Assembly (NCBI RefSeq): GCF_039655875.1
Contig: NZ_JBBYXK010000001.1
Coordinates: forward strand, 868,001-932,000
Direction: 5' to 3'
DNA: 64,000 nucleotides
From: Emcibacter sp. SYSU 3D8
GTDB taxonomy: Bacteria > Pseudomonadota > Alphaproteobacteria > SMXS01
Part shown: piece after piece, positions 3,274-22,583 of the stretch
Numbering within the stretch: position 1 is the stretch's first letter
How the letters are laid out: each line of letters starts with the position of its first letter
The notes under the pieces: generated by a model
The model's input: only the letters and a program-made list of their open reading frames with translations
What the model was told of the DNA's origin: nothing
Database searches by the model: none
Program-made: the position numbers and the translations under genes

Positions 3274-6075
3274 TCACCCCACCCCGAACACCTTCATCAC
3301 CTCGTCGCCCAGGTGATTGATCACCTTCACCGCGATCCGGCCCGACGCCGGCTTGTCGAACGGCCTCGACGTGTCGCCGTACAGGCTCTCCCACGCTTCC
3401 TGGTCGATCTCGGCCTTCAGCGTCGTCTTCAGCGCCTTGTAGGGGTCGTTGGCGCCCAGGAAGTAGGCGTGGCGCACGAAGAAGCTTTCCTCGTTGTAGT
3501 CGGTGTCGATCATCCACAGGGCGATGCTGTCGGCGTCGCCGCTGCGTACCTCGCCAGTCTGCGGGTGGAACACGTCGACGCCGCGGATGTGCACGCGGAT
3601 CTGCGGCTTGCCATCGGCGACGCCCGCGTCCTCGATGGCGATGTCCGGCTCGCCGAACACCACGAACAGGTTGCCGGCGCCGGTGTTCTTCAGCTCGCCG
3701 GCCATGTGCAGGTCCGGGTTCATGCGCGCCTTCAGCACCGGGATACGGCCGAGCTTCTCGAACTCGGCGGAATGGGCGTCGTAGTTGAAGGCGCAGGCCA
3801 CCAGCACGTCGAAGCCGGCGTCGCCCGCCTCGCGCGCCGCGGCGACCAGGTCGGCGCGGGCCACAGTGCCGAATTCGGGGCCGATGAAGATGCCGGCGCG
3901 GCGTTCCCTGTCGCCCTCCATGAACCGGCCCTCGGCGCAGATGTGATCGCCCGGCCAGCCAGTGAGCGCCGTGAAGGCGATGCGGTCTTCCTTGTGTGCC
4001 TGCTGCACGCCGGCGGCGCGCAGCGTGTCCAGCACCATCTGGGCGAAGTCAGCTTCCTCGCCGCCGCCCCGTGGGCCACGCTTGCCCTCGGCGGCCTCCA
4101 GCGTATCGAGCAGCTCGTCGTTTTCGTCCACCGCCAGCACCCGGTGCGGCGACAGGCTTTCCACCGTGAACGGCCCGGCGACGCGCACACGGCTATTGTC
4201 CACATAGGGCTTGTCGTAGAGGTATTCGAACTCGGCCTTGGCGGCGATGGAGGCATCAATCTCCTTCTGCCGGCCAATGCGCGCTTTCCACCAGTCTGCA
4301 TGCAACTTCGCCGCCTCGCTGTTCGCAGCCTGAGCTGGGGAAAGCTCGCGCGGGATTTCCCATTCCTCCCACGCCATGCCCAGCTCCGCGTTGAGCCGGG
4401 TCCGCAGGAGTTCCAGTGTCTCTTGCCATTTGTCCCAGATCGCATCGATCTCGGCATTATTGGCAATGGATTTCAGGGTGATGTGCGGCACTCGTTCGTA
4501 GACAAACCCCTGACGAATGTCGCCGCGCGTCGTCGTACTGCGTGGTGCGGTACGTGTTACCTCCCCCTCTTTGCGTTGCCCTTCAGGGCTGTCAGCCAAG
4601 AGGTAATAGGGATAGCGCGCGCCCATTATGCGTGACCGGGCCAAGGCCAGCGCTACGCGGGAGGTATCAATGGTGATCCACCGCCTTCCCCATTGCTCAG
4701 CAACATAGGCGGTCGTGCCGGAGCCGCAGGTGGGGTCCAGTACAAGGTCTCCAGGGTCAGTCGCCATGAGCAGGCACCGCTCAACCACTTTAGCAACCGT
4801 CTGAACTACGTAAATATTAGCATCCCTGTAGCCGCTGGAACCAGTGTCATCCCAATTGTTAATGATAGGAATGACCGGGAAGTCGTTTACGTACCGCAAA
4901 TATCTGAGCTTCGCAGTAGCTTCATATAGTCGATCAGCTCTTGAGAGCCTGCTCAGCCCGGAGAGATTGGTCTTCCACCGCTGATTATACACGCGCCCAC
5001 GGAAGTTAAACGCAAACAGCGGGTTCGCTGACTCAAGGGCCGTTGTTTGGAGGATCTGCCAGTCGGAAGGCAGCTTGTCCGGATATTCCGCCTCATCACC
5101 GGTCAAACGACGTACAGACAGATCAGGCAGCCTAACATGCCGATAATCAGAGTCCCCACCATAGGCCTTCGCAGAGTATGGCTGACGAAACTTCGCCTTC
5201 TCAATATCTTTGGCGTACCAAAGTAGATAGTCGCCAGTTGACGGGAGAAAGCCGCTAATCAGCCCCCCTGTTTTCTTGAAGCCAATGAGGTTGCAGAAGT
5301 TGTCACTTCCGAAGACCTCATCCATCACCGCTCGAACGCGGTGCACGTTCTCGTCGCCGATCTGCACGAAAATCGAGCCAGTCTCGGCAAGCAAGTCTCG
5401 TCCCACCGTGAGCCTGTCGCGCAGATAGGTGAGGTAGGAGTGGATGCCGTCGCGCCAGGTGTCGCGGAACGCCTTCACCTGCTCAGGCTCGCGGCTGATG
5501 TGGTCCTTGCTGCCGTCCTTCACGTCGCGGCTGGTGGTCGACCACTGGAAGTTGCTGTTGAACTTGATGCCGTAGGGTGGGTCCAGATAGATGCACTGCA
5601 CCTGGCCGCGCAAGCCTTCCCGTTCGGCCAGCGAGGCCATCACCTGCAGGCTGTCGCCCAGGATCATGCGGTTCGTCCAGTGGGCGTTGTGCTGATAGAA
5701 CTCGGTGGCGGCCTCGCGGTCCGGCAGGCCGTTGAAGTCGGCGAACAGGTCGGGCATGCCAGAGCCGCTCTTGTCCGCTTCCTGACGGGCACGCGCCTTC
5801 GACTGGCGCAGCAGGTCGTCGATCAGCACCTTGGGGTGCACCTTCTCCTGGATGTACAGCGGCGGCGCCTGCACGATCAGGTCAGACCAGTCCTGCTCGT
5901 CCTTGCCGCGCCACACCAGCTGCGGGTCGAGGTCGCGGTTGCGCCGCTCGTATGCCAGGCGGATCGGGCTGCGCTCGTCCTCGCGCATCACCCCTTCCAG
6001 CTCGGCCGTGGGAATGTTCCGCCGCTTCGCCGCGCCGTGCTGCAGGGTTTCAACCTCAATGGGCTTCTTGGCCAT
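3274..6075 (-). CDS. Site-specific DNA methyltransferase, type III Mod-like, beta class
   Basis: This 933-residue enzyme probably adds a methyl group to adenine (or N4 of cytosine) and supplies self-recognition for the adjacent Res-like nuclease. The catalytic motif IV (DPPYGIKF) is near residue 164 and the AdoMet motif I (DPTCGSGTTA) near 447. This IV-before-I order defines the beta class, and the region between them usually carries target recognition. A further 480 residues follow motif I, longer than typical Mod proteins. The start is ATG at 6073-6075, sharing one base with the stop of the DUF4268 gene; the longer frame upstream is a shadow. Roughly 4440-5340 has lower GC than the flanks, which hints at exchange of the specificity region. 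Confidence 0.9.
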   Translation of the reverse strand: MAKKPIEVETLQHGAAKRRNIPTAELEGVMREDERSPIRLAYERRNRDLDPQLVWRGKDEQDWSDLIVQAPPLYIQEKVHPKVLIDDLLRQSKARARQEADKSGSGMPDLFADFNGLPDREAATEFYQHNAHWTNRMILGDSLQVMASLAEREGLRGQVQCIYLDPPYGIKFNSNFQWSTTSRDVKDGSKDHISREPEQVKAFRDTWRDGIHSYLTYLRDRLTVGRDLLAETGSIFVQIGDENVHRVRAVMDEVFGSDNFCNLIGFKKTGGLISGFLPSTGDYLLWYAKDIEKAKFRQPYSAKAYGGDSDYRHVRLPDLSVRRLTGDEAEYPDKLPSDWQILQTTALESANPLFAFNFRGRVYNQRWKTNLSGLSRLSRADRLYEATAKLRYLRYVNDFPVIPIINNWDDTGSSGYRDANIYVVQTVAKVVERCLLMATDPGDLVLDPTCGSGTTAYVAEQWGRRWITIDTSRVALALARSRIMGARYPYYLLADSPEGQRKEGEVTRTAPRSTTTRGDIRQGFVYERVPHITLKSIANNAEIDAIWDKWQETLELLRTRLNAELGMAWEEWEIPRELSPAQAANSEAAKLHADWWKARIGRQKEIDASIAAKAEFEYLYDKPYVDNSRVRVAGPFTVESLSPHRVLAVDENDELLDTLEAAEGKRGPRGGGEEADFAQMVLDTLRAAGVQQAHKEDRIAFTALTGWPGDHICAEGRFMEGDRERRAGIFIGPEFGTVARADLVAAAREAGDAGFDVLVACAFNYDAHSAEFEKLGRIPVLKARMNPDLHMAGELKNTGAGNLFVVFGEPDIAIEDAGVADGKPQIRVHIRGVDVFHPQTGEVRSGDADSIALWMIDTDYNEESFFVRHAYFLGANDPYKALKTTLKAEIDQEAWESLYGDTSRPFDKPASGRIAVKVINHLGDEVMKVFGVG

Positions 6076-6986
6076 TATCCGCTGATCCCCAAAATCTCTC
6101 GTACCGCCGCGTCGTAGCGGCGAGCCTCGGTGTGCATCCACTCCATGGCCGCCGGCCAGTTGGCCTCGTTCTCCATGTCGGCGTCATGCGTCGACTGGAA
6201 CAGATAGGTATCGCCTTCGCCGCCTATTGGCGCTCCAAGGCGTTCGCTCAATGGCGCCGCATGGTCGGCAAGCCGTCGGTAGGTTTCGACCGCATCGCTG
6301 CCGTGCCCCCTGACGAAGATGCCGACGCCCTTCTTGCTGAGGTAGATCGACAGGATCAGGTCCTTGTCGCCGATGTACCACCACCAGGCTGACCCGCCCC
6401 GCGGCGCGCGCCGTTCAACGTCCTCCGGATAACGCTCGCGGTAGGCCGTCCAGTAGCGTTGGCGGAACTCACCGACGGCGCTGACCCCGCGGTTCTCCTG
6501 CGCGACGGCTTGAAGCCGCCGCTCCCACTGGTTCGGCTTCTCCAGCACCTCGAAGATCGGCGCGAGTGGGCTGTCGCCGATGCGCACCACGCGCAGCCGG
6601 ATGGCGAAGAACGCGAAGGGATCCGCAGTGTGCTCGTTGAGCCACTTGATGGCCGACAGATGCGGTTCGCGGAAGTCGGTGGCGATCCAGACGATGGTCT
6701 TCGCCTCCAGCCCGACCAAATAGGTCATGATCTGGCCGAGATGGGTATGGTTGGTCGCCTCCAGCTGGTTCTCGATCAGCACACGGCTGTTGTCGGCCAA
6801 GTTTCGAGCGAGGATGTCGGCGGAGAAACTCTCGACCGCGACTTCTTGGCCTTCCAGCTCTAGCGGAATGCCGATCACCTCCGACAGGTGGTCGAGGTTC
6901 GCGGCAAGCCAGGGGGTGAAGTCGATGGCCTCGTGCGGCCAGGCTTGGCGAGGAGGTGTCGTGATGAGTCGGCCGATCTCAGTCAT
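6075..6986 (-). CDS. DUF4268-type protein with PD-(D/E)XK-like N-terminus
   Basis: This 303-residue protein has an N-terminal half that reads like a PD-(D/E)XK nuclease core. Asp57 (SADIL) is followed by Glu72-x-Gln74 (LIENQLE), where Gln replaces the usual Lys, then a helix with HLGQIMTYL. The C-terminal half (FRQRYWTAYRERYP, WWWYIGDKDLILSIYLS) resembles DUF4268. The start ATG (6984-6986) overlaps the Res stop in an ATGA junction, and its stop overlaps the methyltransferase start. It is therefore a fixed part of the operon. It may be a second nuclease, a structural nuclease fold that binds DNA, or a specificity factor; the sequence does not decide. The fold call is good, the domain name likely. 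Confidence 0.75.
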   Translation of the reverse strand: MTEIGRLITTPPRQAWPHEAIDFTPWLAANLDHLSEVIGIPLELEGQEVAVESFSADILARNLADNSRVLIENQLEATNHTHLGQIMTYLVGLEAKTIVWIATDFREPHLSAIKWLNEHTADPFAFFAIRLRVVRIGDSPLAPIFEVLEKPNQWERRLQAVAQENRGVSAVGEFRQRYWTAYRERYPEDVERRAPRGGSAWWWYIGDKDLILSIYLSKKGVGIFVRGHGSDAVETYRRLADHAAPLSERLGAPIGGEGDTYLFQSTHDADMENEANWPAAMEWMHTEARRYDAAVREILGISG

Positions 6987-9900
6987 GCCATTTCCCTCAC
7001 GGGGATTGAGGCGAGCAGCTTTGCAAACTCTGCCTCGATCTCATAGACGCTGGTGAATTCGGCAAAGGCCCAGCGGCCGAACTTGCCCAGGTTGTTCACG
7101 CCCGGCACCCAGTAGGCGCGCATGGTGTTGGCCTTGTCCTTGGCGTCCTCGCCCCGGAAGCCCTTGATCTCGACGATCAGGTTGAGCGGATCGGGATGGC
7201 CGTCGTCGATCTGCACGATGAAATCGGGGAGGTATTTGCGAGCAACCGCGCCTGCCAGATACGGCACTTCCAACCCCAGGTTCTGGTTCTTCACATAGGC
7301 GCGCACGCGGGGATGGGCCTCGGCGACGCGGCAGAACTCGGCCTCCCAGTCGCCGTCGCAGACCACCCAGTTGACATGGCACCGGCGCGGGTCGGTTTGC
7401 CAGCGGGTTTCCTTCGACGTGGTGAAGTTGACGAAGTGGGTGGAGCCCGTCGGATTGTATGGGTCGAGGATCGCCTTCACCGGCCGCTCGCCAGCCAGGC
7501 TTTCGGTGATCGCGGCCTTGATGCGCTCGGCCGCCCGGTCGGCGATCTCCTGGTAGAGCAACTGGCCCGGGTAGGTGCCGCCGGTGCACTTCAGATAGCC
7601 GCCGTCGAGCCATTCGCGCGCGATGCGCTTGAGCTGGCCGAACAGGTGCATCTTGGGCGCGTCGCCCGGGTCGCGGTACTTGTTGTAGAGAAGGTGTTTG
7701 GCGAGATGGAAAAGGATGGTCGAGGGGCGCGATTCCAGATGCTCGACGGTCAGGTCTACGTCAGCGCCGACGATGCCCTTGTTCTTGGTGATCGACGGGC
7801 CGACCAACTCTGGCGTCAACTCAAGTACCGAATCCGGCCCGAATTTCGCCGTCAGCCGCTCTTCGGGCAGTTCGACACGGTAGCCCTCGACACGCGGAAA
7901 AGTGATTTCCAGGAGATCGCGATCCGGCCGGATCGCCTGCACGCGGATCGTCTCGCGCGGTGGCGCGGGCTTCGCAATCACCGGCTTTGCGGCGAAATTG
8001 AATGGGATGCCGAGGATGTCGGCGTACTCGACGTCGAACAGGCCCTCTTCATTAAGTTCGTACGATTGGCGGCGTAGACCCCGACCGACGACCTGTTCAC
8101 ACAGGAGCTGGGTGCCGAAGGCCCGCACGCCGAGGATATGCGTGACGGTGTTCGCGTCCCAGCCCTCGGTGAGCATGGAGACGGAGACGACGCAGCGAAT
8201 GGACTCGCCCAGCCGGCCCTGTTTACCGACCGTGTTCATCACCTCACGCAAAAGATCCTGGTCGGTGATGGAGTCGCCGGCACGCGCGTCGCCGGTGCGC
8301 TCGACGATCTCGCGCCTGAACCGATCGATCTCATCCGCGGCCATCTCGCGGAAATCCTTGTCGAGCGCCTCGCCGGATTCCAGCTGCTCGCTGTCGATCA
8401 GCAGGGTGCGAGGCCGCGCAAGGCGGTTTCCGTGCTCGTCATAATTGCGGAACAGCTTCAGTCTGCCGTTTTCCAGCGTCGTGGAGCCGTCGTCGTTGTC
8501 GCGGTCGAACCCCGAAATGAAGTCGTAGACGACCTTGGAGGTAGAGGTGTTGTTGCAGACCACGATGAACACGGGCGGCACGCTGATGCCGCTGGCGGCC
8601 CAGAGATCGAACGTCTTCTCGTAGTGGCCGTAGAGCGCTTCGAGAGCGGTGTGAAGTAGCGGTTGGATTTTCAGCGGATCCAGACCAACGCCAGATTTTC
8701 CGCGCCCCTTCTTGGGCATCTGCTTGCCAATGTGTTCCCATAGGTTGCGAAGCCGGGGCATGTCGTCATCGCCGCCGGGCAGATTATCGGCGATCGGTAC
8801 ACGCGGCAGTTTAACAATGCCGCATTCGATGGCGTCCATCAGCGAGAAGTCGCTCACCGTCCATGGGAACAGCGTGCCTTCGGCATAGCCCGAGCCGCGC
8901 AGGAAGAACGGTGTGGCAGACAGGTCGTAAACACCTTGCAGGCCCATCTTCCGTTTGATGGCCTCGATGCCGGAGATCCACAGGCGCGCAGCCTCGTTAT
9001 TCTTTTTCGCCTCGGCCTTATCCTCGCCCTTCAGATCGCCCTCGCCGTCACTCTGCGGCTTTTCGCGGTAGCAGTGGTGCGCCTCGTCGTTGATGACGAC
9101 GATGTTCTTCATGCCCATCAGCTCGGGCATGACCCGCTGGAGCATCTTGCCTTCGCTCTCGATGGTCTCAGGGTTACCGAGCAAGGCGCGGCCGACCCTC
9201 GATACCGCCATCTCCTCACGGCGCTTGAAGGCGTGGTAGTTGGTGATGACGATCTTGGCGCGCTCGATGTCGCCGATCATGTCGTTCGGCACCAGCTCGC
9301 GGTGGCGATAGTAGCTTTCCGGATCATTGGGCATCAGCACCCTCAGACGATCCTTGATGGTGATGCCGGGCGCGACGATCAGGAAGCCGCGCGAGAACAT
9401 CTTGCTGTTCGGGTGACGCACGGCGTTGACCGTCTGCCACGCAATGAGCATGGCCATCACTGTGGTCTTGCCGGCGCCCGTCGCCAGCTTCAGCGCCAGC
9501 CGCACCAGTTCGGGGTTCGATTGCTCGTTGGCGCCGCGGATGTGTTCCCAGAACTTGGCGCCGCGCGCACCCATCTTCGGCGCGACCTCGGTGAGCCAGA
9601 TGATCGTCTCAGCGGCTTCGACCTGGCAGAAGAAGGGCCGCAGGCCTTCGAACTGATGGTGCCGCCAGTGCTGCAATAGGCGGGCCGTCTCGGGCGTCAC
9701 CAGCCATTGATCCGGGTTTGGCAGCGCCCGCCAGGTTTCGACGTAACCGCGAATCTCGTTGATGATCGGGGTGGGATTGTATTCCTGTTCGGCGGTCGAG
9801 AGACCGTCGCCGGCGTCGAGCACCAGGGATGTCTGTTCCCGCGGGCTCTTGCGCTTCTTCGGCTTGGGCACCGGCGTGATCAGATCCGACCGGCGGCGCG

Positions 9901-10009
9901 TATTGACGATCTCGCTGGTCGGCTGGCCGTCCTCGTCCAGCGCCCAGTGCTGCCCTGGATAGGCGTAGGGCGAATTCAGGATCGGCCGCTCGAAGAACTG
10001 GTCGCTCAT
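6983..10009 (-). CDS. Type III Res-like helicase-endonuclease (BPTD_3080-type)
   Basis: This 1008-residue protein combines a superfamily 2 helicase and a C-terminal nuclease, as in type III restriction subunits. Walker A (LATGAGKTT) is near residue 176, the DEAH box (INDEAHHC) near 306, the SAT motif (DLSATPFF) soon after, and motif VI (QVVGRGLRR) near 641. Near residue 929 comes LPDFIVQIDD and near 945 LIVEIKG, a PD-x(n)-ExK metal site. It resembles what annotation pipelines call the BPTD_3080 family, a name I give from memory. It is the first gene of the operon and overlaps the DUF4268 gene by 4 bp (ATGA). The start is ATG at 10007-10009. No strong ribosome site is visible. Confidence 0.9.
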   Translation of the reverse strand: MSDQFFERPILNSPYAYPGQHWALDEDGQPTSEIVNTRRRSDLITPVPKPKKRKSPREQTSLVLDAGDGLSTAEQEYNPTPIINEIRGYVETWRALPNPDQWLVTPETARLLQHWRHHQFEGLRPFFCQVEAAETIIWLTEVAPKMGARGAKFWEHIRGANEQSNPELVRLALKLATGAGKTTVMAMLIAWQTVNAVRHPNSKMFSRGFLIVAPGITIKDRLRVLMPNDPESYYRHRELVPNDMIGDIERAKIVITNYHAFKRREEMAVSRVGRALLGNPETIESEGKMLQRVMPELMGMKNIVVINDEAHHCYREKPQSDGEGDLKGEDKAEAKKNNEAARLWISGIEAIKRKMGLQGVYDLSATPFFLRGSGYAEGTLFPWTVSDFSLMDAIECGIVKLPRVPIADNLPGGDDDMPRLRNLWEHIGKQMPKKGRGKSGVGLDPLKIQPLLHTALEALYGHYEKTFDLWAASGISVPPVFIVVCNNTSTSKVVYDFISGFDRDNDDGSTTLENGRLKLFRNYDEHGNRLARPRTLLIDSEQLESGEALDKDFREMAADEIDRFRREIVERTGDARAGDSITDQDLLREVMNTVGKQGRLGESIRCVVSVSMLTEGWDANTVTHILGVRAFGTQLLCEQVVGRGLRRQSYELNEEGLFDVEYADILGIPFNFAAKPVIAKPAPPRETIRVQAIRPDRDLLEITFPRVEGYRVELPEERLTAKFGPDSVLELTPELVGPSITKNKGIVGADVDLTVEHLESRPSTILFHLAKHLLYNKYRDPGDAPKMHLFGQLKRIAREWLDGGYLKCTGGTYPGQLLYQEIADRAAERIKAAITESLAGERPVKAILDPYNPTGSTHFVNFTTSKETRWQTDPRRCHVNWVVCDGDWEAEFCRVAEAHPRVRAYVKNQNLGLEVPYLAGAVARKYLPDFIVQIDDGHPDPLNLIVEIKGFRGEDAKDKANTMRAYWVPGVNNLGKFGRWAFAEFTSVYEIEAEFAKLLASIPVREMA

Positions 10010-13550: not shown

Positions 13551-13580
13551 GCGACACATTTAGATTTTTTGTGTTATAAT
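13551..13580 (+). promoter_or_regulatory. Sigma70-type promoter for the HNH gene
   Basis: GCGACA at 13551-13556 (three of the last bases match TTGACA) is followed, after 18 bp, by a perfect TATAAT at 13575-13580. The DNA is AT-rich compared with its surroundings. Because the promoter sits here, translation must start downstream of about 13587, which rules out the TTG at 13569 as the start of the HNH gene. Confidence 0.5.
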
Positions 13581-13661
13581 TCAATATCTTATGGATCACC
13601 CTGCGCCCTTGTCGCCCAGCGTCCAATGCCACTAAAGATCGCGATAGAGGCCAAAGTTTCC

Positions 13662-14123
13662 ATGATTACATCACGTAGCTCAGCCTCTAAGCCGGTAGAC
13701 AAAGAGGTCTGGATCGATACGCCGGGATTCATATATCTCTATCGAGTATCGAGTATGGGCAGAGTGCTGCGCCTGCCGCGGCCTGGCACCCTCGATCAGC
13801 GCCTCGATTACACCCGTATCCTGGAGCCCAACTTCGCCGGCCACCATCTTTGGGTGTGGCTCCGAGACCATGATCACCAGCGTCACAGGCTTCGGGTTGA
13901 CAGGCTGGTTGTCTGCGGCTTCTCGGGCCAGCCCTATGCCGTGTTTGACGTTGTTCACCTTGATCGCGACAACCGCAACTGCCGGCTGGAGAACCTGATC
14001 AGGCTTAACAGACGCACGGTCTTTGGGCCTGCGCATTCCAGGCGCTCAATCATCCGCGTTGACGATACCGCGTATGTTCAAGGCTACAGAGCTGCGTTGG
14101 TCTCCAGCAAGACGGCCGTTTGA
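13662..14123 (+). CDS. NUMOD4-HNH endonuclease-like protein
   Basis: This protein of about 153 residues joins two short domains usual in phage and mobile-element HNH proteins. First comes a NUMOD4-like segment (EVWIDTPGFIYLYRVSSMGR), then an HNH_3-like core with VVHLDRDNRNCRLENLIRL, where His, Asn and Asn mark the metal site. The start is uncertain: ATG 13662 has AGAGG 11 nt upstream, while ATG 13626 gives 12 more residues with no ribosome site. Such proteins nick DNA and act in homing or in phage packaging. Here it is a single gene with its own promoter and terminator. The family call is good. Confidence 0.75.
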   Translation: MITSRSSASKPVDKEVWIDTPGFIYLYRVSSMGRVLRLPRPGTLDQRLDYTRILEPNFAGHHLWVWLRDHDHQRHRLRVDRLVVCGFSGQPYAVFDVVHLDRDNRNCRLENLIRLNRRTVFGPAHSRRSIIRVDDTAYVQGYRAALVSSKTAV

Positions 14124-14364: not shown

Positions 14365-15573
14365 ATGTTGCCGAAAGCGGATGCTTCCTCTATTCCCCGC
14401 CAGCTCGATCTATCGCCATCAGAGAGGAACGCCGTGCCCATCCACCGAGAGGTCGAGCTGCCGATGAGGTTGCACTCGCAGTCGCTGACGCTCCCCTATC
14501 GCGTTGGCGAACTCACCGGCGCCCAAGCGCGACTGCAGGGCCGCTACGTGGTTGAGCCGGATGTTGACGTGTCTGGGAAGAGCTTCGCCTGTTCCGCGGA
14601 GGTTGACTGGCTGGTGTTCGGTGTGTCGCTACGGAATGTGACGCAGAGCGTGCATGTCAGCACCCTACTTAGCCCAATCCTCCGCCGGCAACCCCACGTC
14701 GAGGGGCCGAATGGAGAGTCGCACTACACCGGCAACGACTTTCGCATCCGGGTACAGCAGCCGAAGAGACGCAAGCTCGATGAAGTGCTGTTTGAGCTGG
14801 ATGATCGATGGGGCCTGGTGGGCGAACCGAGGCCCTTGCAGATTGAGGTGTCGCTGGATTTTTATCCGAAGGATGAGACGGATGAGACCCGCCGCATGAT
14901 GGTAGGCATACTGCAGCGACACTTCCTGGCGCCCGACGAGCATGTCGAAGGGAAGATGGCAAAGGGGCGGTTCTTCTTCACGTACGGCAATCCGCCCCGC
15001 AAGAAGACCTTCCGGATCTACAGCAAGAAAGGCGCCACCACGCCGCTCATCGATTCCACGGTCTACTTCGGCAAGGAGGGCGCGCCGGTGACATGGCGCA
15101 TCATGGATAAGACCACCGACGACCGCAAAGGCGTCAAGGCGATGGCGCTGATGCAAGACAAGAAGCGGGCGCGCATAGAGGTGACCCTGGGTGATGCGAC
15201 GGTGGCAGCAATGGGGCTGGAGACACTCGACGACCTGAAGAGCCCGTTCTTCACCAAGCTGAGGAAGCCCTACTTCGAGTTCAGACTGCCGACGTTCGAT
15301 GAGGTGGAGGGCAAGGGCATCGAGGCCGCGAGGGAGAAGTACGAGGAACTGAGATGGTCGCTGTTCGCCCAGGCCGGGGTGTACGGGCTGCTGAGGATGG
15401 ATCGCGCCGCCGATGTGACCAGGGCCGACCTCAACCGCAAGCGAACCGAGGGGAAGGTCAGAGCGCCTGACGGCACACTGCGGCGTCTGCGGGTGGGAGA
15501 GAACGCTCGGCTGGTGGCGTACGGCGCGCTGCACAGGCGGATCGGCGCCGCGCTCCGCAATCTCAACCTGTAA
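14365..15573 (+). CDS. Possible rolling-circle replication initiator (Rep_trans-like)
   Basis: This 402-residue protein is not recognised with certainty. Residues 75-345 show a pattern that recalls the Rep_trans/RstA-type initiators of small plasmids and filamentous phages: VDWLVFGV, then LQIEVSLDFYP, then STVYFGKEGAPVTWRIMDK, then RARIEVTL. The comparable family segment is a TxYxG strand followed by an RxYDK box and a basic/acidic strand. Here Met replaces the Tyr in that box, so a catalytic Tyr would have to be elsewhere. ATG 14464 (MRLHSQSL) is an alternative start with GAGG upstream. A hairpin lies 24 bp past the stop. A role in element replication is inference. Confidence 0.45.
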   Translation: MLPKADASSIPRQLDLSPSERNAVPIHREVELPMRLHSQSLTLPYRVGELTGAQARLQGRYVVEPDVDVSGKSFACSAEVDWLVFGVSLRNVTQSVHVSTLLSPILRRQPHVEGPNGESHYTGNDFRIRVQQPKRRKLDEVLFELDDRWGLVGEPRPLQIEVSLDFYPKDETDETRRMMVGILQRHFLAPDEHVEGKMAKGRFFFTYGNPPRKKTFRIYSKKGATTPLIDSTVYFGKEGAPVTWRIMDKTTDDRKGVKAMALMQDKKRARIEVTLGDATVAAMGLETLDDLKSPFFTKLRKPYFEFRLPTFDEVEGKGIEAAREKYEELRWSLFAQAGVYGLLRMDRAADVTRADLNRKRTEGKVRAPDGTLRRLRVGENARLVAYGALHRRIGAALRNLNL

Positions 15574-16173
15574 CCCGCTCTGGCTATGGCTTCCCGTTCC
15601 GCTTAGTATCTAGTTATTAGATGGAGAGCGGAAATGCCGCCGGTTTGGCCAAGCCCAGCCTGGGCGGCGCTCGCCTCGTCATATACGGCCAAAACAGCCG
15701 TATTCACGTCGGAAACAGGTCGGATTTGACTGAAACTTACACCTAGGCGGCATGCGAGCACTGGGCAGTGGCGTGCACCAGGCAGTCGCCAGACCAGCGC
15801 CAGCGCGGCTCTTCAGACGGCCACCGCCAAGCTGGCATCGGCGAACGCACGCCGCCTGTGGAAGGATCCGACGCCGGGCAGCTGCCAAAATGTGCCGGCA
15901 TGGCCCACGAGGCTCGCCTCGGTGCTAAGACTACCCATCCCTTCGAACAATGTGCAACACGACGGCGCCCCACCCTGTCGGCTTCATCTCACGGCAAGAC
16001 CGATCAAGTCGCACAGAAGCGTGCTGACTCGCGTCGCTTCTCCCGGGCATGGATAACACCCCAGAACGTCGCATGCGCACTCAGCGAGCCCCAGGGAGTC
16101 GGGAAACGGCACCCTGCATCAGCATGTCGATCACGCGAGCTTTGGGCGCACTAGACGACCGCCAGCAAGACCA
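15574..16173. other. 600-bp region without a convincing gene
   Basis: Apart from a hairpin at 15597-15633 I see nothing I can support. Open frames on both strands here are short, rich in Arg, Pro and Cys, and have no ribosome sites or recognisable motifs. It may be decayed coding sequence. Confidence 0.5.
15597..15633. repeat. Interrupted palindrome after the Rep-like gene
   Basis: TTCCGC (15597-15602) pairs with GCGGAA (15628-15633), and inside it ATCTA (15608-15612) pairs with TAGAT (15618-15622) around a GTTAT loop; 5-nt unpaired bulges separate the two stems. It lacks a T-run, so it is not an obvious terminator. Its place next to a Rep-like gene makes an origin hairpin possible. Confidence 0.4.
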
Positions 16174-16791
16174 TCAGGCGTCACCCTTCGCCTTCTTCCT
16201 CATTCGCACCTGCATCGCACGGCGTGCCCCTGCGATGCGCCCGAGGGCAACGCGAATGGCGTCTTCATTGACAACGGTTGGATCAAAGTCACCGAGCTGG
16301 TCGCTGATCTCATCATGCTCCGGATGATCCGAATCGGCGAGGATGGCGACCAGATCGTAAAAGCCGCCCAGCCCGCCGCAGTCCTCCGGCGGCACCGCGT
16401 TTTCACCGCCAACGTAGAGGGGGTAACCAATCTCCGGGTCGCCCGCCCGGATGTTCTTGACCACCAGGCGGTGATGCCAGTCGTCGCCAAAGTCATACAG
16501 GTAGTCAATCACCGTCTGGCCAGGCTGAAGAACCTGCCGGAGCCGCACCTTGCCTGCGTCGGTAGTCGGCGTGTCGCGCCATTCCCCATCCACCGGCAAG
16601 ACGTAGCGCCGATCGCCGATCTTCAACTCCCAAAGGTGCTCGTCGAACCACCCCATCGCCGCCTGCACGATTTTGTGCAGCACCTTGAGTGTCACCGAAG
16701 TTGGCACCTCCACCTGGCGCCAGATCAACGGATTGGAGCCGGTCAACTCGATCCGGAGCGTGGCGATCTCGTTGATGCTGTTGCTGGTCAT
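16174..16791 (-). CDS. Plasmid pRiA4b ORF-3 family protein
   Basis: This 205-residue protein matches the PRiA4_ORF3 family. Hallmarks are LRIELTGSNPLIWRQVEVP at the N-terminus, LHKIVQAAMGWFDEHLWEL, the central YLYDFGDDWHHRLVV box and CGGLGGFYDL. The family is common on plasmids and genomic islands; its biochemical role is unknown to me. I place the start at ATG 16789-16791 because the family begins with the IATLRIEL strand; an upstream start at 16863 would add 24 unlikely residues. It stands alone, with no operon partner. Confidence 0.85.
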   Translation of the reverse strand: MTSNSINEIATLRIELTGSNPLIWRQVEVPTSVTLKVLHKIVQAAMGWFDEHLWELKIGDRRYVLPVDGEWRDTPTTDAGKVRLRQVLQPGQTVIDYLYDFGDDWHHRLVVKNIRAGDPEIGYPLYVGGENAVPPEDCGGLGGFYDLVAILADSDHPEHDEISDQLGDFDPTVVNEDAIRVALGRIAGARRAMQVRMRKKAKGDA

Positions 16792-17053
16792 GCGGGCACA
16801 TTTCCGAATCTGGCTGATGGCCAAACAACTAGCATTCGGCAGCTTGGATGCCTGCGCGAGCATCTTAACCGCGGATCTACCAGATGTGTCTTTGACGAAA
16901 CTCGAACATCAGATCTAAGTCAACCTCCATGCATAGAGAAAATTAAGCATCAGATAGACAGTGAGGTCATACGGATTAGCGCATTAAGAGCGATAGCGTG
17001 ATGTCGACACCCGGCCGCTCTCCGCGGTCATTTTGGAGACCACGCCGCACCGC

Positions 17054-18339: not shown

Positions 18340-18765
18340 ATGACCGACGGCATGAATGAAGACACCCGCACCACTTTCACCAGCCTCCTCGAGTACCTCG
18401 AATTCGCCTTCGAGCGCTCCCCCAAGACACATGCCGAGATCGCGCATGAGATGGGATATCGCAGCGAAAACGTGCTCACGATGATGCTGGCCGGCATCTG
18501 CAAGGTGCCGATCGACAAGGTACCCAGCCTGGCAAGGGCGCTCAACGTCGAGCCCTCTCACATGATGACGCTCGCGCTGGAAGACTACTGCCCGGCGATT
18601 TTGCGGGCGATGGAGGAGACGTTCGATCATATCGCCACACCGAACCAGAAAGAATGGCTCAAGGTGGTGCGACACATCTCCGGCGACACCGATCCGCGGA
18701 TAACCCCCGATATCCGCGGCCTTCTTGAAGAGCACTTCCGCAACAACGTGGTCACCCAAGGCTGA
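18340..18765 (+). CDS. XRE-like helix-turn-helix protein
   Basis: This 141-residue protein carries an HTH of the lambda-repressor type in residues 15-70: HAEIAHEMGYRSENVLTMML as the recognition helices, then KVPIDKVPSLARALNVEP. The remaining 70 residues (YCPAILRAMEETFDHIATP) are helical and unrecognised. AGGAACGAG precedes the ATG. It is followed at once by a long inverted repeat. It could regulate the divergent reductase gene or the element itself. Confidence 0.7.
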   Translation: MTDGMNEDTRTTFTSLLEYLEFAFERSPKTHAEIAHEMGYRSENVLTMMLAGICKVPIDKVPSLARALNVEPSHMMTLALEDYCPAILRAMEETFDHIATPNQKEWLKVVRHISGDTDPRITPDIRGLLEEHFRNNVVTQG

Positions 18766-19028: not shown

Positions 19029-20261
19029 CTATAGTCGACAGTTCGTCATTACGGCGCGCGTGCGCTCCTCGATGTGCCTTTGGAAGACCACGAAGGGTAT
19101 CAGCACGCCGCCAGCATCATTCGCAGCCAGCCTGGTCAAGGAAGGCAACCTTGCGAGAACGCTTTCGGCGAGCGCCTCCACTCGCCGCACGGTCGCGGCA
19201 GGCGCTAAACCGACCGCTTGAGCGAAGTTCTCCCAATGCCGCCTTTGCAGGTGCTCAGCACGCGAATTGTCTGCGATCTTCATCGCCATGTTCCGGGTGA
19301 TGTTGCTGTAGATCAGTGACGTCATGGCATCGTAGTGCGGCGCAAGCCGCCAGCCTCGGTCATCAAGCAACAAGCTGTAGTTCTTAGCGTGCCGATCCGT
19401 GTCGCCGATGCAGCACGAGAAGATGACCATGTCGAGCAGCGTCAGTCGATCGCGCGCCGCGGCCGCGGAGTGATGAACCACCACCTCAAATAGCTGCTGT
19501 AGGCCGGGGCCACCGGATGCCTGGTACTTCTCCGTTGGGTAGCGCCCAAGAGCCTGGCAGAAATCTTCCTGGTGGCGGCGGGTGACCCGCCCATCCTGGG
19601 CGATGCTACGATCATAGCGGCGCACCAGCAGATAGCGTTGATCCCCGGCTCGCCCGAAAGCGGCTTCCGGCGTGGGGATTCCCACGGCAGACGCCAGCCT
19701 CATGCACATCAATTCGTTTGCAACCGACGCGTAGAGGCGATCATTGGCGGGCTTCAGAATATGCGTCGAAGCGGCGCCGTTGATCGGCAGCATTACGCGC
19801 CCTCCGATCACTGCGACGAGCATCTTGCTCTGCGCCCCCGCCAGCGACAGGGCCACCCCTTCGTCGCCGATGAGTAGCGGCCTCTGCGGCAGCCGACGGA
19901 TTGCAGCCGCAAGGTCGTGCTCGTCAAGAGCTTGGTAGCGCCCGCTCTCCGGCTTCTTGGCGTCGCCGATCGACAGTGCACCGGCGGTGTCGCGACCGAT
20001 CTCTTCCAAAATGCCATATGTGTCGCCCGCAGCGCGGCCAAGAATCTGGCCGATCATCTCAAGCTGCGGTTCCTCGGGCAGCAGATTGGCGAACCAGGGC
20101 GTCGCCACGTCGATGGGGTAGACATCCTTAACAAGAGGCATCGACACCGAGATCGCGAACCCTTCTCGGATCCAGTCAGGGTCATAGGCGAAGGACAGCC
20201 CCCCCCCGCTGGTACGCTCCAGGATACCGACCCGCTGTTGTTCGCACCAGACACCCAACAT
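19029..20261 (-). CDS. hipA: HipA-type serine/threonine kinase toxin
   Basis: This 410-residue kinase is the toxin of a type II HipBA module; HipA proteins phosphorylate targets such as glutamyl-tRNA synthetase and slow growth. Features are LANLLPEE-like ATPWFANLLPEE near residue 60, a glycine-rich LSLAGAQSKM near 135, LVRRYDR and the catalytic GDTDRHAKNYSLL near 284, followed by PHYDAMTS. The start is ATG 20259-20261, 2 nt after the hipB stop; the frame upstream is a shadow of hipB. Length is normal and the kinase residues are present, so it is probably active. Transcription is likely repressed by HipB at the three palindromes upstream. Confidence 0.9.
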   Translation of the reverse strand: MLGVWCEQQRVGILERTSGGGLSFAYDPDWIREGFAISVSMPLVKDVYPIDVATPWFANLLPEEPQLEMIGQILGRAAGDTYGILEEIGRDTAGALSIGDAKKPESGRYQALDEHDLAAAIRRLPQRPLLIGDEGVALSLAGAQSKMLVAVIGGRVMLPINGAASTHILKPANDRLYASVANELMCMRLASAVGIPTPEAAFGRAGDQRYLLVRRYDRSIAQDGRVTRRHQEDFCQALGRYPTEKYQASGGPGLQQLFEVVVHHSAAAARDRLTLLDMVIFSCCIGDTDRHAKNYSLLLDDRGWRLAPHYDAMTSLIYSNITRNMAMKIADNSRAEHLQRRHWENFAQAVGLAPAATVRRVEALAESVLARLPSLTRLAANDAGGVLIPFVVFQRHIEERTRAVMTNCRL

Positions 20262-20263
20262 GG

Positions 20264-20488
20264 TCAGGCCGGCAACGAGGCGCTTACGCGGATATTCAGC
20301 AGCCCGGCGATGCGGAAGGCCAATTCCAGGCTGGCGCTCTGCTTGCCGCGCTCCAGCTCGCTGACAAACCGGAGACTGACACCCGCGGCGAGGGCCAGCT
20401 CGCTCTGGGTTAGACCCTGTGACTTGCGACCTTGACGGATGACGGCCCCGAACTCGGATGCGTTGAATATGACTAGGGAAGTGTTCAT
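20264..20488 (-). CDS. hipB: HipB-type XRE antitoxin
   Basis: This 74-residue protein is a single HTH domain: FGAVIRQGRKSQGLTQSELA, LAAGVSLRFVSELERGKQSAS, then LELAFRIAGLLNI. It should bind HipA and the operators upstream of its own start. The gene precedes hipA by 2 nt, the usual order. One operator palindrome begins directly next to the start codon (20489). Confidence 0.9.
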   Translation of the reverse strand: MNTSLVIFNASEFGAVIRQGRKSQGLTQSELALAAGVSLRFVSELERGKQSASLELAFRIAGLLNIRVSASLPA

Positions 20489-20506
20489 TTTTCCTGATCG
20501 GGAAAA
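20489..20506. promoter_or_regulatory. Candidate HipB operator 1
   Basis: TTTTCCTGATCGGGAAAA is a near-perfect palindrome abutting the hipB start codon, with one mismatched base pair. It shares the core TCGGGAAA with the next site. Binding here would block transcript elongation or translation initiation. Confidence 0.65.
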
Positions 20507-20536
20507 CGCAGGGGGTTGAGAACCTTGCAGCGCGAA

Positions 20537-20554
20537 TTATCCCGTTCGGGAAAT
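20537..20554. promoter_or_regulatory. Candidate HipB operator 2
   Basis: TTATCCCGTTCGGGAAAT is a palindrome of the same type, centred 48 bp upstream of operator 1. Confidence 0.65.
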
Positions 20555-20583
20555 CGTCTCCGCGCGCTGCGGTCATGTTGACG

Positions 20584-20624: not shown

Positions 20625-22412
20625 TCATGTGCCTGGATACAGGCCGGTCAGATCGATCGGGTAGTTGACCGCGTTCACCGCCTTCAGCAGCGATTGTGGC
20701 CCATAACCCTTCCCGTAATGTTGCTGTTCGACATGGGTGCCCTCGTGGCCGACAACAGCGTGCCTCACATCCTCGCCTACGTCGGCAGCTCGAAGGGCGT
20801 CGATCATCGTATGGCGGAAGCTGTGGAAACTCAGTGACCGCCTCCTACGCAAATCCTCGCCGAGGATCTGACCTAGCAAGCGGTTGAGCCGCTTGCTCTC
20901 CGGATCGGATTCATATCCAGAAGCGCCCTTCTTGACGGCTGGCCACAGTAGAGCACTTCCAGATCGTCGACGTTGCGCCACGTAGTCCAGAAAACCGATA
21001 TCGAGCAGTTCGCGATGGATGGGCGTTAGTCGCTTCGAGGCCGCGGTTTTGAGATTCTTGTCGCCGGCGTCGTTAATATCGAAACACGGCACACCCTCTT
21101 CGGTCACGATATCGGCAACCCGAAGCTGGCAGATTTCACCGAGGCGTGCCCCGGTAAACAGCGCGATGAGCGGCATCCAGAAGCGGTGATCACGAACCTG
21201 AAAATTTCCTGGCTCCGTAACACGGCCTGACGACCTGCAGCCTCGGAACAATGGTGCATCGAAAAGGATCTGCAATTCCGAGGCATCGAACGGGCTGCGC
21301 GGCTTGGTAGTTTTCTTGGGAGCGCGATGATTGATCCCCTCTGCTGGGTTGATGCCCAGGAGACCTGACTCCTTGCACCACCTGAAAAACAGCTTCATCG
21401 GGATCAGGTACTTGCCCTTCGCGGTGCCGTTATCGAGTTTCGGTAGGCCGCGCTCGGCCGCTACACGAATGGCTTCAGCGTAGCCCAATCCCGGCAGCTT
21501 CTTCGTTCTGTTGCTCGGGAGGCTGAGCACCACCTGCTTGAATCTCCCAAGCATTGCAGGAGTGATGCTCTGCAGTAGGGCATCGTTGCCCAGTACCTCG
21601 ACCAGGAGCGAGGTGGCCGTCAGGTGGGTGTCCATGGCTTTGATGCGAAGCGACTGGGTCGCGCGCATCTCCGCGATATAACGGTCTCTAACGGTGGATA
21701 GCGCCGCCTCCTCATCAACCATTTGAGACGGAGGCGATAATTCAACAGCCCCGGATGCGGCGGCGGCGGCCGGTGCGGAAGCGCCTCCAGATATCTCAAT
21801 TTCTTCCTCCTGGAACTCTACGAGGTCAAGTCTGGAGGCGTTGATCGTGCGGCCATCGGAGCGTTCGACTTGCACTTCCCTCAGGCGCTGTGACGCCGCA
21901 AAAAGTGCCTGAGCCAGCTTGATGTATTGGGGAGTACCCTGTTCCGCCGTCACTCCCAACGCGGTTATCTCTCCGCTCATGGAAGTCTGCATCGCATGCA
22001 GATCGGCGTCTCTCAGGATGTGTGCCATCCGCGCGAGCTCGTCTGTCGCATCGAGACCAATGCCGATGTTGATATAGTGCCCGACAGGAAGATCGAGTTC
22101 TCTCGCGCCATCGAGATAACCAGCGGTTCGACTGGAGCGGGCCTGCAGATCCTCATCAAGCCTCAACCGCAGCCAACCGTTCACGAGGTCGTTGATCATT
22201 ACCTTGGGCATATCGGGATCGTTCCTGATAAGCGCCATTGCCCGTGCAAGATGCGCGACCAACCGGGCACCTCGCACACGCGCTAGCGAGTTGTCTCGGG
22301 TGCCTAAAGAGCGGGATATTTCGCTGCGGCCGATGCGGCCGGAGATGTCGCCAGCGATGCGTAGCCGCAGCCGGTAGATCCCGGCTCGAGGGTAGATGTT
22401 TGAGGTAACCAC
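20625..22412 (-). CDS. int: Tyrosine recombinase, integrase of the island
   Basis: This 595-residue phage-type integrase should catalyse insertion and excision at the adjacent tRNA-Ala. The catalytic domain is C-terminal: Arg in TGARLGEICQL near residue 420, a HSFRHT box near 528, GHEG about 22 residues on, and the nucleophile Tyr in QQHYGKGY near 563. The N-terminal 250 residues hold the arm- and core-binding parts and are longer than in lambda Int, resembling DUF6538-type integrases. The gene starts 95 bp from the CCA end of the tRNA. Two 12-bp direct repeats lie just upstream. All key residues are intact, so it may be functional. Confidence 0.92.
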   Translation of the reverse strand: MVTSNIYPRAGIYRLRLRIAGDISGRIGRSEISRSLGTRDNSLARVRGARLVAHLARAMALIRNDPDMPKVMINDLVNGWLRLRLDEDLQARSSRTAGYLDGARELDLPVGHYINIGIGLDATDELARMAHILRDADLHAMQTSMSGEITALGVTAEQGTPQYIKLAQALFAASQRLREVQVERSDGRTINASRLDLVEFQEEEIEISGGASAPAAAAASGAVELSPPSQMVDEEAALSTVRDRYIAEMRATQSLRIKAMDTHLTATSLLVEVLGNDALLQSITPAMLGRFKQVVLSLPSNRTKKLPGLGYAEAIRVAAERGLPKLDNGTAKGKYLIPMKLFFRWCKESGLLGINPAEGINHRAPKKTTKPRSPFDASELQILFDAPLFRGCRSSGRVTEPGNFQVRDHRFWMPLIALFTGARLGEICQLRVADIVTEEGVPCFDINDAGDKNLKTAASKRLTPIHRELLDIGFLDYVAQRRRSGSALLWPAVKKGASGYESDPESKRLNRLLGQILGEDLRRRRSLSFHSFRHTMIDALRAADVGEDVRHAVVGHEGTHVEQQHYGKGYGPQSLLKAVNAVNYPIDLTGLYPGT

Positions 22413-22443: not shown

Positions 22444-22507
22444 TCGAGCCCTCGTGTCGAACGGCGCGCCGCAGACCCCGCGGAAACATTGGGGTTTTTA
22501 GGGAAAA

Positions 22508-22583
22508 TGGTGGAGCCAGACGGGATCGAACCGACGACCTCAAGCTTGCAAAGCTAGCGCTCTCCCAACTGAGCTATGGCCCC
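22508..22583 (-). tRNA. tRNA-Ala(TGC), integration site of the island
   Basis: The 76-nt minus-strand gene begins GGGGCCATAGCTCAG and ends GGCTCCACCA, with CCA encoded. The anticodon loop TTTGCAA gives anticodon TGC, alanine, and the TTCGATC T-loop is normal. The anticodon stem CTAGC/GCTTG has a T-T mismatch at 28-42. The 3' half faces the integrase, so it would have been supplied by the element on insertion. Acceptor, D and T stems pair well. Confidence 0.95.

Follow-up and report, generated by a model that had tools for sequence, protein, structure and literature searches.

The window (the 64-kb stretch of Emcibacter DNA that was analysed) carries, within an integrative element of ∼54 kb, a gene for a protein with a predicted Rep_trans-like fold in which a methionine stands at the position of the catalytic tyrosine. 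The substitution by methionine or glutamine is common to six of the eight proteins of this kind that were found, and nearly all other positions of the active site are invariant among the six. Rep_trans proteins depend for their mechanism on a single tyrosine, which cuts the DNA and stays attached to it. A conserved set that lacks this residue and keeps the remaining active site would represent either another way to cut DNA or the conversion of an initiator into a binding protein within mobile islands. We favour the former, at a probability of roughly 45%: the gene may encode an element-borne DNA-processing protein of Rep_trans fold that keeps its metal site and uses another nucleophile. Our results point to a Rep_trans-like branch, low in its scores, among the elements of alphaproteobacteria.

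Table 1. Features of the window discussed in the text (coordinates in the window; a point marks features without strand).
Feature	Coordinates	Strand	Remarks
Type III restriction-modification cargo	3274..10009	-	mod 3274-6141, DUF4268 gene 6075-6986, res 6983-10009
Rep_trans-fold protein gene	14365..15573	+	402 codons; start more probably at GTG 14434
Motif II (T232-x-Y234-x-G236) and motif III (R245-I-M247-D-K249-T-T-D252)	15058..15120	+	begins with TVYFG; Met codon 15103-15105 (ATG, in RIMDK) replaces catalytic Tyr
Motif IV (R270-I-E272)	15172..15189	+	begins with RIEVTL; E272 is a metal ligand by alignment; residue roles from the excerpt of PMC4797284
Two-step hairpin TTCCGCT...AGCGGAA	15597..15633	.	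candidate cis site or terminator
Second inverted repeat ATACGGC-7nt-GCCGTAT	15683..15703	.	7-bp arms, 7-nt loop
Small HTH-like protein	18340..18765	+	homologues close to the gene's relatives in Rhizobium, the viral record and the two Sagittula plasmids
HipA-like cargo gene	19029..20576	-	
Tyrosine integrase, DUF6538 N-domain	20625..22412	-	abuts the attachment site; Phage_integrase 25.0 of 27.1 bits, just under cut-off
Right attachment repeat	22501..22525	.	25 bp; tRNA-Ala 3' end plus 7 nt
tRNA-Ala (TGC), integration target	22508..22583	-	

The gene, its relatives and the predicted fold

The reading frame carries TVYFG...WRIMDK...RIEVTL, is uninterrupted in the Emcibacter window, and has GC contents at its three codon positions (0.64/0.43/0.80) that are typical of a real coding frame. 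Translation probably starts at codon 24, a GTG preceded by AGAGAGGA. No second gene of this kind was found in the same genome, where a PF02486 search at E ≤ 1 returned only this frame (E 0.09) and a protein search with the window protein returned only the self-match. A NUMOD4/HNH gene, whose product could be a homing-type endonuclease, lies just upstream (13569-14123).

Our searches gave eight members in all, whose reading frames are unbroken and 391-412 codons long; the seven others are ∼26-32% identical to the window protein. They come from Defluviimonas, a member of the Phyllobacteriaceae, Pelagibacterium montanilacus, Rhizobium sp. CF122, the viral record IMGVR_UViG_2919166419_000001 and two Sagittula plasmids. 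A profile search of 398 genomes of the phylum found three carriers, namely the genome studied here, Defluviimonas and Rhizobium, and contig scans with a wider profile yielded four genome loci (Defluviimonas, Phyllobacteriaceae, Pelagibacterium and Rhizobium) together with the viral locus. Among plasmids, the single tblastn hit comes from Sagittula sp. MA-2 (26%, E 4e-13); it is alignable across 89% of the window protein and led in turn to the homologue of S. stellata E-37; both proteins (WP_283983559.1 and WP_347100768.1) are annotated as hypothetical. Scans of genome and viral contigs with a single protein found nothing, an initial profile scan of the viral contigs was equally negative, and further viral scans with other queries returned the same viral record or nothing. 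A phage collection held no match to the three members used as queries, the Rhizobium member had no match among plasmids, and a search of 96 relatives and 385 genomes of the class with two queries recovered only the window gene. The Rhizobium and viral-record proteins are 61% identical to each other, and with a pN of 0.25 and a pS of 0.76, raw proportions that we report with synonymous sites saturated for dN/dS, the pair is under purifying selection.

Sequence alone makes a weak case for membership of Rep_trans. The window protein matches the Pfam Rep_trans family (PF02486) over residues 231-285 with 13.7 bits (E 0.046), below the gathering cut-off of 29.6 bits, and the unrelated Gly_acyl_tr_C family, also below its cut-off, does slightly better (E 0.023). 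In a PF02486 scan of the members other than S. stellata, scores were obtained for Defluviimonas (19.0 bits, E 0.0012), Phyllobacteriaceae (16.2 bits, E 0.0083) and Sagittula MA-2 (11.6 bits, E 0.21), and the Pelagibacterium, Rhizobium and viral-record proteins had no match at E ≤ 1. For the window protein, NCBIfam and PADLOC gave no match and PHROGs two weak ones. Sequence searches of the PDB brought up no Rep_trans chain: the single protein gave five weak, unrelated matches and a profile gave none.

The predicted structure of the window protein (pLDDT 66, pTM 0.68) is of low confidence at the N-terminus, and Pfam, at E ≤ 1, finds no HTH domain in the protein. Its sole Foldseek match in the PDB at E ≤ 0.001 is RepDE (4cwe, E 2.2e-5). 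When the Foldseek candidates were re-aligned, 4cwe again came first (Z 9.7, 211 residues aligned, 4.1 Å), followed by 4cwc (Z 9.6, 222 residues, 4.3 Å) and 4cij (Z 8.4, 206 residues, 5.3 Å), with unrelated chains from Z 6.5 down. The model of a second member (pLDDT 63) places the same three Rep_trans entries first (Z 10.0, 9.6 and 8.2; next 7.2). A Rep_trans/TBP-like fold is therefore supported on the predicted models by the three Rep_trans crystal entries that lead the ranking. The signal from Foldseek on the second model is less clear, with no match at E ≤ 0.001 and Rep_trans absent from the top 50. Seven BFVD entries, most of them unnamed, passed E ≤ 0.001, and their TM-scores are low; one is an inovirus protein, and others are from large DNA viruses. 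A profile-profile alignment to Rep_trans proteins of other proteobacteria, represented by six whole proteins and four fragments of 2-45 residues, gave an E of 1.8e-5 (for one comparison) and a probability of 78% over 68 columns, and it places M247 on the Rep_trans tyrosine. The relationship to Rep_trans that the original prediction proposed is thus upheld by the ranking of the predicted structures and by this alignment, and the structure comparison on which it was to stand or fall, run on predicted models, did not refute it.

It is improbable that the protein is not related to Rep_trans at all but is another TBP-fold DNA-binding protein that resembles it. TBPs make up much of the Foldseek list below RepDE, and the Pfam score is below cut-off. 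However, Rep_trans itself has the TBP fold (according to the excerpt of PMC13107129), the motifs occur in Rep_trans order, and the Sagittula members retain K-I-Y-D-K. A misplaced motif register was also considered and ruled out, since the profile alignment and the Sagittula KIYDK agree.

The active site and its missing tyrosine

Catalytic residues of RepDE were taken from the accessible text of PMC4797284 and the five motifs from that of PMC5714925, and they were mapped onto the window protein by sequence alignment rather than by residue-level structural superposition. The metal aspartate of motif N' (D81) is present in all eight members, as is motif II (T/SxY/ExG), which reads T232-V-Y234-F-G236. 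Motif I (RxD) is replaced by Q159-I-E161, with the arginine absent and the aspartate changed to glutamate in 8/8. In motif III, the expected YxKxxE with its catalytic tyrosine reads M247-D-K249-T-T-D252 in the window protein. The RxE of motif IV (R270, E272) is kept in 8/8, with the W/L position taken by arginine in the six members that lack the tyrosine. The metal ligands would, by alignment, be D81, E161 (an aspartate in RepDE) and E272.

The window protein thus resembles Rep_trans initiators (RepDE/RepD, RepSTK1) in its predicted fold, the motif N' aspartate, the TxYxG of motif II, the lysine of motif III with an arginine or lysine before it, and the RxE of motif IV. It differs from them in the nucleophile (methionine or glutamine in 6/8), in motif I (xxE for RxD), in the aspartate for glutamate of motif III, in the W/L of motif IV that is not kept, and in a Pfam score below the cut-off; moreover, those initiators belong to small rolling-circle plasmids, whereas the present members lie in integrative elements or large plasmids. 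Because the motif I signature and the catalytic tyrosine are both absent, we do not count the protein as a member of Rep_trans. It is a divergent relative whose mode of action is at best partly that of Rep_trans.

At the nucleophile position, methionine is found in four members (window, Defluviimonas, Phyllobacteriaceae and Pelagibacterium), glutamine in two (Rhizobium and the viral record) and tyrosine in the two Sagittula proteins (KIYDK). In other proteobacteria every PF02486 match has a tyrosine there (10/10, at ten loci in nine of 299 genomes of the phylum, seven of the ten over the cut-off), and a change from tyrosine to methionine takes three base changes. The unrooted tree of the eight proteins separates tyrosine from methionine/glutamine with support of 100/100 and leaves the branching on the methionine/glutamine side unresolved; as tyrosine is the rule in Rep_trans, a single loss seems probable. 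Among the titles and opening lines of abstracts that were searched, a sample mostly outside the subscription literature, no tyrosine-less branch of Rep_trans was found.

The rest of the active site is kept. Within the six tyrosine-less proteins, 11 of the 13 other catalytic positions are invariant (D81, E161, E272, D165, T232, Y234, G236, R245, K249, D252 and R270), compared with 28 of the 238 columns of the core, which we delimited ourselves as residues 74-311 (hypergeometric P 5e-10). The two that vary are the motif I arginine, which is lost, and the alanine two residues past the motif I aspartate, which is serine or alanine. Judged from these alignments, the missing tyrosine is a shared trait of the subfamily, a kept feature rather than decay, given that methionine or glutamine is common to six members in which the other active-site positions are invariant. 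The original prediction had pointed to a methionine where tyrosine is expected in an RxYDK-like box, and M247 indeed aligns with the Rep_trans tyrosine. It had added that this could mean an inactive protein or a wrong assignment; the substitution does not signal a wrong assignment or an inactivation confined to this protein, because the same methionine is found in three other divergent members and glutamine in two, and on the same grounds decay and sequencing error were ruled out as its source.

What the substitution means for catalysis is a closer question. Tyrosine is the nucleophile in RepD (excerpt of PMC4797284), and its change to alanine abolishes the activity of RepSNJ2 (excerpt of PMC13107129) and of RelSt3 (in the accessible parts of a source among PMC4797284, PMC6499999, PMC5704250 and PMC5714925), which together argue that the strand transfer of Rep_trans would be lost in the tyrosine-less proteins. 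A pseudoenzyme derived from Rep_trans, which would fold, bind metal and element DNA without strand transfer and act in origin binding, copy control or regulation, is nearly as likely as the reading that we prefer. The nucleophile is the catalytic position that separates the tyrosine-less from the Sagittula members, besides lysine for arginine at R245, and it has changed to non-nucleophilic residues. In a comparison of two alignments of the members, no potential substitute for the tyrosine was newly invariant in the tyrosine-less set only: besides M1 and L400, the invariants specific to this set are R56, Q131, W244, R245, R268 and R330, so that no specific nucleophile has been gained. The small HTH protein found nearby in 5/8 loci (see below) is a further point in favour of a pseudoenzyme. 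However, a protein that does no more than bind DNA would have no need to hold its metal ligands and both basic residues of motif III invariant at about 30% identity. The invariant carboxylates and basic residues are most simply explained by catalysis, and it is therefore most likely, as far as conservation can indicate, that the protein acts on the DNA of its own element with a working metal centre.

Returning to a protein that uses another nucleophile, three tyrosines are common to all eight members (Y234, Y386 and Y45). That the tyrosine-less subfamily as a whole keeps its metal centre and phosphate-gripping residues and acts on the DNA of integrative elements in alphaproteobacteria through another chemistry, either with an alternative tyrosine such as Y234 or by hydrolysis without a covalent link, is a more doubtful proposal.

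The tRNA-Ala element and the surroundings of the relatives

The gene belongs to an element of ∼54 kb integrated at a tRNA-Ala gene, as indicated by an integrase at the tRNA end, by direct repeats and by the shorter counterpart of the site in a congener. A 901-base search located the left copy of the repeat outside the window, at C1:836531-836555, 24/25 identical to the right copy and 54.0 kb away from it. The integrase is 33% identical to a DUF6538 protein of Rhizobium over 335 aligned positions. The right flank has an 85% match in the congener G002 that begins at window position 22504, and the nearest flank shared on the left lies at C1:827787-828742 of the genome studied here. The distance from this flank to the tRNA gene is 4.0 kb in G002 compared with 61.8 kb in our genome, so the site is occupied differently in the two; in G002 it is not empty but holds 4.0 kb of other DNA. 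A further congener, G004, likewise shares the right flank of this tRNA-Ala with our genome. Between the left side of either congener and the DNA just left of our left repeat, no match was found. The tRNA-Ala site looks like an integration hotspot, as the congeners share its right flank and have a left side unlike the DNA outside our left repeat.

Besides the restriction-modification and HipA-like genes of Table 1, the element carries Z1 and UvrD proteins. Its left part (C1:837991-846000) encodes a multicopper oxidase, a heavy-metal P-type ATPase, an RND pump and a metal-responsive repressor, a block that we read as copper resistance. Among the element proteins scanned, which were a part of all its reading frames, neither a relaxase-family Pfam match nor a plasmid replication gene was found.

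It had been suggested that the island carries, or has absorbed, a small replicon, a view that finds no support in a gene that sits inside a ∼54-kb element with an integrase and tRNA-Ala repeats. Very unlikely, too, is an ordinary rolling-circle initiator of such a replicon that was inactivated by mutation. The Rep_trans fold and the methionine in place of tyrosine would fit it, but the reading frame is intact, three other divergent members have the same methionine and two more have glutamine, and the gene lies in an integrative element whose scanned proteins, again a part of the whole, include no plasmid replication gene.

The small HTH protein is encoded near the gene in 5/8 loci, at distances of 0.5 to about 9 kb, with phmmer E-values from the window protein of 1.5e-11 to 3.9e-5; the Defluviimonas, Phyllobacteriaceae and Pelagibacterium stretches gave no match to it. 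Its profile matches 4/190 genomes of the class at E ≤ 0.001, our genome included. The link to the Rep_trans-like gene is not exclusive, since one genome (G193) has a strong HTH match without a Rep_trans-like gene in the 20 kb around it.

Integrase-type genes lie within about 26 kb of the gene in the Rhizobium, Phyllobacteriaceae and viral-record loci, and none was found on the Pelagibacterium contig or the 7-kb Defluviimonas contig. At the Rhizobium locus, where a Phage_integrase search had no match, there is a DUF6538 protein homologous to the window integrase, along with Z1, AIPR, a DNA methylase and Vsr. The Phyllobacteriaceae locus, at a contig end, has an integrase 13.5 kb away and genes for Cas1, Cas3 and Cas7; a CRISPR-Cas locus and an integrase on the same stretch suggest that this element also carries defence cargo. 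The viral record (28 kb), which has portal, capsid, terminase, integrase, KAP NTPase and DUF2293 genes with the Rep_trans-like gene at its edge, may be a capsid-carrying satellite or a truncated prophage. The Sagittula proteins are alignable with the window protein and have an HTH neighbour of the same kind, but they keep the tyrosine (KIYDK) and are borne on plasmids that carry a separate gene annotated as replication initiator protein A.

Two known groups offer further comparison. The MOBT relaxases of Firmicutes ICEs (RelSt3, NicK) likewise have a Rep_trans-type active site and are encoded in integrative elements, yet they retain the catalytic tyrosine (Y252 in RelSt3) and an N-terminal HTH domain, whereas the window protein has no such tyrosine and no Pfam HTH match, and its subfamily occurs in alphaproteobacteria. 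Rep-Arvir proteins (RepSNJ2, archaeal viruses) are, similarly, divergent relatives of Rep_trans in an integrating element with a hairpin downstream, but they keep an absolutely conserved tyrosine, where the window protein has methionine, and a MarR-like wHTH domain.

The downstream hairpin and a possible mode of action

The two-step hairpin without a T-run that was originally described is borne out by the sequence and by folding. It begins 23 nt past the stop codon, has no T-run after it on either strand, and has a predicted folding energy, as DNA, of −8.1 kcal/mol (z −4.4, with 1/200 shuffles as good), with the opposite strand at z −5.2 (0/200 shuffles). It is the sole two-step hairpin of its kind in the 64 kb, compared with 0, 0, 0, 0, 0 and 1 in six dinucleotide shuffles, under thresholds (outer arm ≥ 7, inner arm ≥ 5) that were chosen after the hairpin had been seen.

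A role as an origin has a precedent in the archaeal Rep_trans relative RepSNJ2, which depends on a conserved downstream hairpin, its likely origin (excerpt of PMC13107129). Two inverted repeats lie within 130 nt downstream of our gene, an arrangement resembling bind/nick origins. This likeness is a resemblance and says nothing of function; the window hairpin is a candidate origin, and that of Rep-Arvir is conserved and needed for replication. In the six of seven relatives with downstream sequence (489-700 nt), no fold with z ≤ −3 was found within 200 nt past the stop, among the four best folds per locus, upstream and downstream taken together; the nearest such fold among these is at +225 in Phyllobacteriaceae, and S. 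stellata has a weaker fold (z −2.5) at +69. A scan for perfect stems (≥ 6) skipped the window hairpin itself and is thus no guide to the relatives.

The chances appear even that the hairpin is not an origin but a transcription terminator or an operator between convergent genes. It lies just past the stop codon, between our gene and a gene on the opposite strand (16174-16863), and no counterpart was found at the matching place in the relatives. Against a terminator, the T-run is absent on both strands, and a pair of inverted repeats within 130 nt is reminiscent of bind/nick origins.

If the protein does cut DNA with another nucleophile, the integrase would first excise the element as a circle. 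The Rep_trans-fold protein would then bind a site on the element, possibly the region of the downstream hairpin, and the retained three-carboxylate metal centre would nick one strand, so that the circle begins to replicate or is mobilised. With the motif III tyrosine replaced by methionine or glutamine, the attack would come from another residue or from metal-bound water, the neighbouring invariant Y234 being the first candidate.

Hairpins were also seen elsewhere in the loci of the relatives. In Sagittula (L002, about 7436-7480), a strong hairpin follows the HTH gene, and its arms (AGCGGA/TCCGCT) are the same six bases as those of the window hairpin in inverted order, which may be chance. A near-identical hairpin (AAGGTCCGGCG-A/T-CCAGCCGG-A/G-CCT) occurs in Rhizobium (L012, about 7322) and in the viral record (L013:7688-7710); it lies just upstream of the 146-147-aa gene that the two loci share and is a possible operator or cis site of those elements.
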